A stretch of DNA of 64,000 nucleotides from an uncultured Gammaproteobacteria bacterium. Its GTDB lineage: Bacteria; Pseudomonadota; Gammaproteobacteria; UBA4575. The DNA lies in the NCBI GenBank assembly GCA_951812785.1, contig OX638335.1:1693653-1757652 (forward strand), read 5' to 3'. Numbering within the stretch: the stretch's first letter is position 1; every line of letters starts with the position of its first letter. A program made the translations under genes and the position numbers. Below are positions 35,210 through 36,883 of the stretch, piece by piece. The notes beneath the pieces were generated by a model. The model made no database searches. It worked only from the letters and a program-made list of their open reading frames with translations, and was not told where the DNA came from.

Positions 35210-35288
35210 TGCTCTCTACTCCTCACCCCTGATTACTCTACTTTCAATCCAATTTGGAATTAAAACTACTAGCTAATATCAGGGAGCA

Positions 35289-35687
35289 TCATCCAAACTG
35301 TTGATGGAGCTTTTCATGAAACTCTGGCTTATACTCATTCCACAGTTAGCCAAATATTTAGTTAATTCATTAGGCTCCTCATTACTAATTGCGTCTACAA
35401 TGGCAATATGCAAATCATGTGAAAACTTTTTGCTTTATTCACGCATCACCTCCAAATCCTCCACAGACATTTCATGCTCAATAAGCATTGATTCTTCCAT
35501 CTTCAAATAAAACATCATGTAATGTTCAAACATAATAATTGTAGGCTTCAAAGCCTTCAATCTCCACCCTTGCTGCATAAAATAATATAATGAAAACCGT
35601 CGCAATTAAGCCATGATGTTGCTCATTTACCATAGGAATATCAACTAAATCGTCATCGTGCCAGTTAATAAATAGTAACTGCTTCAT
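35289..35687 (-). pseudogene. bacteriohaemerythrin with several lesions
   Basis: Across frames one reads MKQLLFINWHDDDLVDIPMV, NEQHHGLIATV, YFMQQGWRLKALKPTIIMFEHYMMFYLKMEESMLIEHEMSVEDLEVM, then FSHDLHIAIVDAISNEEPNELTKYLAN and EYKPEFHEKLHQQFG. The His and Glu/Asp ligands of a diiron O2-binding haemerythrin (WHD, NEQH, HYMMFYLKMEE, HD) are in order. Breaks: a frameshift after IATV near 35590, an in-frame TAA near 35437, and another shift near 35340. The frame on the plus strand in this stretch is a shadow. Confidence 0.75.
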
Positions 35688-35871
35688 CTCCTAATTCGGC
35701 CCTTTCTACTTAATCCAAGCGCTAAATAACTAGAAAATACAAGCATTTAACATTAACTACATTACCATTTACAATTTCTAATCAAGAAGGTTGAGCTTAA
35801 ATTAATTTGACACTATCTACACTTCTACAAACTTGAAATTAATCCGGGCTCAACCCCTACCCATCTAAACA

Positions 35872-36240
35872 TTAACTATCAGATTTTTTCCCGCCACATT
35901 TTCCTTCGCCGCATTTACCCTCACCATGCTTTTTCATTCTTTTCATTTCATCAGAACTCAGCACCCCATCACCATTTTTATCTTTTTTTGCAAACTTCTT
36001 TTCTGCATGAGCCATAAACTCGTCTTTACTTACAGCACCATCTCCATCCGTGTCTATCTTCTTCATCTTCTTTGCCATTCCGCACTTTCCTTCCTTGTCA
36101 GCCACCATATAACCATCTGAAAGTTCAGACATTTGAAAGGGGTTTTCTTCTGCGTTGATTGGCGAAGCAATCAAGACGCTAGTAGCAACGGCAGTACTGA
36201 CTGCGGCAAAATATGATTTTAATTTAGCTTGCTTAAACAT
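35872..36240 (-). CDS. EF-hand protein with EGKCG motifs (HvfA/bufferin-like precursor)
   Basis: A 122-residue exported protein. A signal peptide (SYFAAVSTAVATSVLIASPINA) is followed by ENPFQMSELSDGYMVADKEGKCG, a start very like the HvfA-type precursors that end in EGKCG repeats. It then has two EF-hands, DTDGDGAVSKDE (63-74) and DKNGDGVLSSDE (87-98), and a tail GEGKCGEGKCGGKKSDS. EGKCG occurs at 50-54, 107-111 and 112-116. In HvfA/bufferins such Cys are changed by MNIO (DUF692) enzymes to copper-binding thiooxazole-type groups; no DUF692 gene is in this window. A GAGGAG site precedes the ATG. Calcium- and copper-binding is inference. Confidence 0.8.
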   Translation of the reverse strand: MFKQAKLKSYFAAVSTAVATSVLIASPINAEENPFQMSELSDGYMVADKEGKCGMAKKMKKIDTDGDGAVSKDEFMAHAEKKFAKKDKNGDGVLSSDEMKRMKKHGEGKCGEGKCGGKKSDS

Positions 36241-36489
36241 TTTTAGCTCCTCTTTTTATTAAAATAATAATAGCTCAGTATATTTAGATGTCTATCTTTC
36301 TAAAAGTTCTAAGCAAAAGGGCAAACTCAATTGATCTGCACTTTTCGCATACCCTTAAAAAGTTCCGAGCCCTATACAATCCGCTCACAGAAATTATAAA
36401 CGCATGTAATAATTGAATTTTATACGTTACATCAATTACACCTTCTCATTATCCGGTCAACCAATCAAGTCTAACCTCTTTGGTAAAAA

Positions 36490-36883
36490 TTATGTTTTAT
36501 CCGATTTACCGAGCATTGCTCTAATTTTTTTCCACTCATGCTTATCGGGCTTCTTGGAAGTACGCGGCAATCCTTGGTTTAAAATCTTACGTTGCGCAGC
36601 AATCAACTCTCGTTGCACAACACTTTCATCGCTCTCTCTAATACAACTGCTGCGCCTCACTAGCAGATCTTCTCTGACCTGCAATCCCACAGACTATAAT
36701 TTCTTGCTTAACATCGGGACGCGTTATCTGTATGACGTCATCAACTTTCACTCGATATGATGGCTTTACCCTTCGACTATTAACATGTACACGACCACCT
36801 TCCACTACATTTGTCGCCATACTACGCGTCTTATAGAAACGCGCCACCCACAACCACTTATCAATTCGTATTAGCTCTTCCAT
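36490..36883 (-). pseudogene. hslR: heat-shock protein Hsp15 (S4 domain), frameshifted
   Basis: From ATG 36883: MEELIRIDKWLWVARFYKTR, then MATNVVEGGRVHVNSRRVKPSYRVKVDDVIQI, an S4 RNA-binding domain that stops at 36638. The rest is read in another frame: ESDESVVQRELIAAQRKIL...PRTSKKPDKHEWKKIRAMLGK. One extra base near 36640 explains it. Hsp15 binds free 50S subunits that carry a nascent chain. The S4 domain itself is complete, so a truncated protein might still bind RNA. Confidence 0.85.

Follow-up and report, generated by a model that had tools for sequence, protein, structure and literature searches.

A gene in the 64,000-nt stretch analysed here (the window), which belongs to a complete, single-contig genome of 2.16 Mb from an uncultured Gammaproteobacteria bacterium, probably encodes a second, stand-alone, calcium-binding precursor of a captophorin (5-thiooxazole peptide) that is matured in trans by HvfBC; we put the probability of this assignment at roughly 0.6. 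The evidence lies in the architecture of the predicted protein, its homologs, the maturase genes found elsewhere in the genome and a promoter that the gene appears to share with the hvfA operon.

The predicted protein (Table 1) possessed two EF-hands scoring above the Pfam cut-off (EF-hand_5, E 5.6e-11; EF-hand_1, E 3.8e-10), with both loops carrying the canonical ligands D1, D/N3, D5, G6, and E12, and it ended in GKKSDS after the double EGKCG. It contained 3 Cys residues, each inside an EGKCG. The match to the NCBIfam family KCGExKCG_twice (NF050137) barely passed (19.8 bits vs a cut-off of 19.5), and that to the HvfA equivalog NF050188 was weak and did not reach the cut-off (22.5 bits vs 95), which the operonic HvfA of the same genome also failed to reach (42.5 bits). 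Residues 2–57 shared 50% identity with this HvfA, and the signal/leader region is probably a leader for recognition by the maturase. With three EGKCG, an HvfA-like leader and two Pfam EF-hands at the positions in Table 1, the protein conformed to what the sequence-only reading had described, namely a precursor of the HvfA type that carries a pair of EF-hands. In the AlphaFold model (mean pLDDT 61.5), the EF region had a pLDDT of about 76–87, while the leader and tails were mostly around or below 55; the model agrees with a predicted folded EF pair between a disordered leader and tail. The open reading frame is a real gene and not a chance one, since it had homologs in the family with a conserved EF core and leader, an AGGAG 5′ of the start, and a promoter dyad conserved among orthologs.

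Table 1. Features of the EF-hand/EGKCG precursor gene and its upstream region (window coordinates)
Feature	Position	Strand	Basis or remark
EF-hand/EGKCG precursor gene	35872..36240	(-)	ATG to stop open, 122 aa
Sec signal peptide, aa 1-30	36151..36240	(-)	by eye, cleavage after INA
HvfA-type leader motif NPFQMSELSDGYMVAD, aa 33-48	36097..36144	(-)	sequence and homolog comparison
First EGKCG, aa 50-54 (Cys53)	36079..36093	(-)	sequence
EF-hand loop 1 DTDGDGAVSKDE, aa 63-74 (D63-E74)	36019..36054	(-)	Pfam and homologs
EF-hand loop 2 DKNGDGVLSSDE, aa 87-98 (D87-E98)	35947..35982	(-)	Pfam and homologs
C-terminal double repeat EGKCGEGKCG, aa 107-116 (Cys110, Cys115)	35893..35922	(-)	sequence, NF050137 match
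Ribosome-binding site AGGAG	36247..36251	(-)	sequence
Sigma-E-like promoter GAACT-N16-TCTAA	36284..36309	(-)	43 bases from start codon, ortholog-conserved

Two apparently damaged loci flanked the gene. An S4-domain gene (Hsp15/hslR-like; 36490–36883, (-)) seemed frameshifted, with its S4 half at 36638–36883 and an apparent C-terminal continuation at 36490–36690 in another frame. Just 3′ of the EF gene (35240–35700, (-)), broken frames resembled by eye a decayed bacteriohemerythrin (INWHDDDL...NEQHHGL...MEESMLIEHEM), and no Pfam match to hemerythrin was obtained on these frames.

The sequence-only reading had noted that the window holds no DUF692 gene and had counted a genome without MNIO as grounds for abandoning the proposal. 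The first point was right, and the genome search recovered both DUF692/MNIO and DUF2063 genes, the two MNIO genes mapping outside the window. One of them belonged to a full hvf operon, in which HvfA has eight EGKCG and the further products are a glutamate-synthase-like protein, DoxX, HvfB (MNIO), and HvfC (DUF2063); of these, HvfB (438 bits vs a curated cut-off of 360) and HvfC (305 vs 142) both passed; the glutamate-synthase-like (PF01645) gene lay between hvfA and doxX (L006:6220-7719). The other was located in a DUF2282 bufferin operon together with an ECF-type sigma gene. Membership of the window protein in Bufferin 1 was rejected, as it had no DUF2282 match and a separate DUF2282 gene was present in the genome. 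The EF gene and hvfA, which start at genome positions 1729892 and 1891744, respectively, are separated by about 162 kb, and no MNIO/DUF2063 pair adjoined the window gene; other taxa with this architecture did show such adjacency.

In the family sample of 19 genomes (the order-level sample comprised the same 19), EF homologs with an HvfA-type leader occurred in several genera and carried three (the window protein), four, five, or seven EGKCG, and others none. In 19 of the 28 homologs tabulated, KCG motifs flanked the EF pair on either side, an arrangement here called the sandwich, which is thus frequent and no peculiarity of the window gene. It often lay immediately 5′ of hvfBC, and the EF loops detected in the 28 homologs kept the main calcium ligands with few exceptions. 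In Thiobacillus, Hydrogenophilaceae, Nitrosospira and relatives, and Thiogranum, the EF/KCG gene preceded those for MNIO and DUF2063, and further cases were present in the class-wide sample; the EF-hand/HvfA combination, whose recurrence had been put forward for checking, was confirmed in several genera of the family and, as the first gene, in MNIO-DUF2063 operons of other taxa. In the family of the window genome, the EF/EGKCG gene was a stand-alone paralog unlinked to MNIO, and no conserved gene neighbourhood was seen around it across the family.

Related arrangements were observed further afield. Three Flavobacteriales genes (L055:5773-6393, L049:2928-3521, and L085:4342-4896) encoded lipoprotein-like EF-hand proteins, with four EF-hands shown for those of L055 and L049 and with GKCG repeats at the C-terminus; their flanks contained no detected MNIO, and this may be an independent combination of EF-hands and GKCG. 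In genome G003 (L015, L037; G003:C15), an EF protein lacking both leader and EGKCG adjoined MetG-RnfB-Nth, a site that hvfA occupies in both the window genome and G006 (L006, L016), the hvfA of G003 being located elsewhere.

In the class sample, all 12 genomes encoding a KCG-bearing EF protein also had an MNIO, versus 220 of 370 overall; the genomes compared are phylogenetically non-independent, and 6 of the 12 are cases of operonic linkage. Among carriers of a stand-alone KCG-EF gene, an HvfB-type enzyme was encoded in 8 of 8 (G000, G005, G009, G010, G086, G356, G309, and G314); in G356 (G356:C118; L251, L256), a second HvfB-type gene consisted of overlapping pieces and contained an internal TGA, which seems to reflect decay or a sequencing error. 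When family EF homologs were scored against HvfA signal/leaders, those with KCG scored 88 to 163 and those without −2 to 96, ranges that overlap slightly. All of these samples, including those of MNIO co-occurrence, are small and related. HvfBC acts preferentially on HvfA that retains its signal peptide, the Sec signal serving as the leader (PMC13419390), and an HvfA-like signal/leader in the KCG-bearing EF proteins is therefore what would be expected of a substrate.

Alternatively, the product may be mainly an EfhP-like periplasmic protein that binds or senses calcium, in which EGKCG and leader are drifting leftovers, unmodified or incidentally modified. EfhP has a Kd of 13.7 uM for Ca2+ and influences responses to Ca2+ (PMC9132961), and in the present homologs the EF core was the most conserved part, the number of EGKCG drifting from 0 to 7 among close relatives whose calcium ligands were conserved. 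The sequence-only reading had held that Cys residues not conserved across homologs would speak against a modified peptide, and this variation brought that objection halfway home. Cys-less EF paralogs were present in G001 and G005, of which G001 (99% complete) had two EF homologs, neither with EGKCG, and no MNIO; G008 and G002 of the family kept the promoter and EF-hands with EGKCG absent. From this drift and these two genomes, selection in the window lineage may be acting on the EF portion. Speaking against simple drift are an HvfA-like leader kept wherever KCG is present, C-terminal EGKCG arrays that were long and perfect in G010 and G005 (4–7 repeats), and the same architecture being operonic with HvfBC elsewhere. 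We regard an EfhP-like role without a functional modification as unlikely, though deserving of weight.

A GAACT-N16/17-TCTAA dyad, which resembles the sigma-E consensus, was recovered by exhaustive dyad search in 7 of 8 upstream regions (six EF genes and two hvfA), the eighth having TCCAA instead of TCTAA; the motif was identified post hoc, and 60 shuffled sets reached at most 3. The window genome contained 11 such sites, including those of hvfA and the EF gene, and other sites were situated 28–72 bases 5′ of frames that, judged by reading, presumably encode RpoH, a DsbA-like protein, a LolA-like protein, and an OmpA-type lipoprotein. The RpoE of the genome passed its cut-off. A reversed control pattern was about equally frequent genome-wide, so the motif alone is not specific, and its weight comes from position and recurrence. 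It was seen only within the family, no such motif being found upstream of 22 homologs outside it. On these upstream sequences, the EF gene appears to share a sigma-E-type promoter with the unlinked hvfA operon. A further sigma-E-like site (L238; G000:C1:197187-197212) was located 5 bases before a gene for a Cys-rich, probably exported protein (CPCDCKD...), a possible further member of the regulon.

The preferred reading is thus of a stand-alone EGKCG-type captophorin precursor (oxazolin-like, a 5-thiooxazole RiPP) carrying a calcium-binding EF-hand pair, for which we infer modification in trans, copper binding, and any coupling of calcium to copper. Transcription would start at a sigma-E-type promoter like the one in front of the hvfA operon. 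In the cytoplasm, the HvfA-like signal/leader would be recognised by HvfC and the EGKCG cysteines turned into thiooxazoles by HvfB, the C-terminal double repeat most readily; Sec would then export the matured product. In the periplasm, the rings would bind copper and the EF-hands Ca2+, which would fold the middle domain, and the Ca2+-loaded EF pair might anchor or tune the metallophore tails. By analogy with FonBC, for which two adjacent repeats suffice as a minimal substrate and one does not (PMC13097082), the C-terminal pair is the most secure candidate site of modification. Calcium would more likely act as a structural clamp than as a switch, because periplasmic calcium would often load sites of the affinity reported for EfhP (PMC9132961). 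A bolder version is regarded as rather doubtful: one HvfBC would mature two unlinked precursors, both expressed from the same type of sigma-E-like promoter, and Ca2+ on the EF pair would alter how the thiooxazole tails on either side are arranged or how tightly they hold copper, so that copper trapping is gated by the calcium state of the envelope.

It is improbable that the Cys residues stay unmodified and bind copper or a different soft metal as ordinary thiols beside a structural calcium domain: a gene standing alone and unlinked to MNIO in the family, and a window protein with only three Cys, would fit such a role, but an HvfB-type enzyme was encoded by every stand-alone carrier checked, the leader was conserved, and hvfA had the same promoter motif. 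A lanmodulin-like protein that binds lanthanides is very improbable, for although the NCBIfam lanmodulin model matched at E 1.1e-8 and a solved lanmodulin was among the phmmer matches, the score was 35.3 bits against a curated cut-off of 135, calcium-binding proteins and calmodulin scored equally well or better by phmmer, and loop position 2, where Pro is typical of lanmodulin, was T and K in the window protein. A match to XopAW (36 bits vs a cut-off of 120) was rejected as EF-hand similarity only.

The sequence-only reading had considered the EF-hand/EGKCG combination new; in this it was anticipated, since a 2025 paper (PMC12452194) had already described EGKCG|EF-hand chimaeras and suggested that they might function in Ca2+ signalling or homeostasis. 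As an exported protein with EGKCG and two EF-hands, the window protein can be assigned by architecture to the Buf_EGKC|EF-hand_5 chimaeras. Like it, these have an N-terminal signal or transmembrane segment, EGKCG and two EF-hands, occur in Pseudomonadota, and are MNIO-associated; as described, however, they consist of a short EGKCG domain with the EF-hands fused C-terminally to it, whereas the window protein has a second EGKCG array after the EF pair and its gene lies far from MNIO genes. The Haemophilus HvfA oxazolin precursor (PMC13419390, PMC13097082) shares with it a signal peptide, EGKCG repeats, and HvfB, HvfC, and DoxX in the genome; the window protein differs from that precursor in having only three EGKCG, an inserted EF-hand pair, a score below the equivalog cut-off, and a gene outside the operon. 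Fontiphorin and other captophorins, among the most numerous RiPP classes, likewise have EGKCG repeats as thiooxazole sites and an MNIO with a DUF2063 partner; the main text of that paper makes no mention of EF-hands (PMC13097082). EfhP of Pseudomonas aeruginosa (PA4107; PMC4053335, PMC9132961) resembles the window protein by description, being small and periplasmic with two EF-hands, but work on it has treated it as a calcium sensor, not a RiPP; genes for DUF692 and DUF2063 proteins lie next to it (PMC4053335, 2014). The main texts of this literature describe no C-terminal EGKCG array after an EF pair, no maturation in trans of a stand-alone EF paralog, and no sigma-E-type co-control. What is added here is the sandwich form, a stand-alone paralog with an HvfB-type enzyme in the genome, and the shared sigma-E-like promoter. 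A calcium-binding captophorin that apparently shares its maturase and sigma-E control with a plain form would tie such peptides to envelope stress, and two precursors for one maturase would provide a clean two-substrate test of leader recognition. The same relationship offers a molecular reading of why EfhP, a calcium protein, adjoins MNIO genes.
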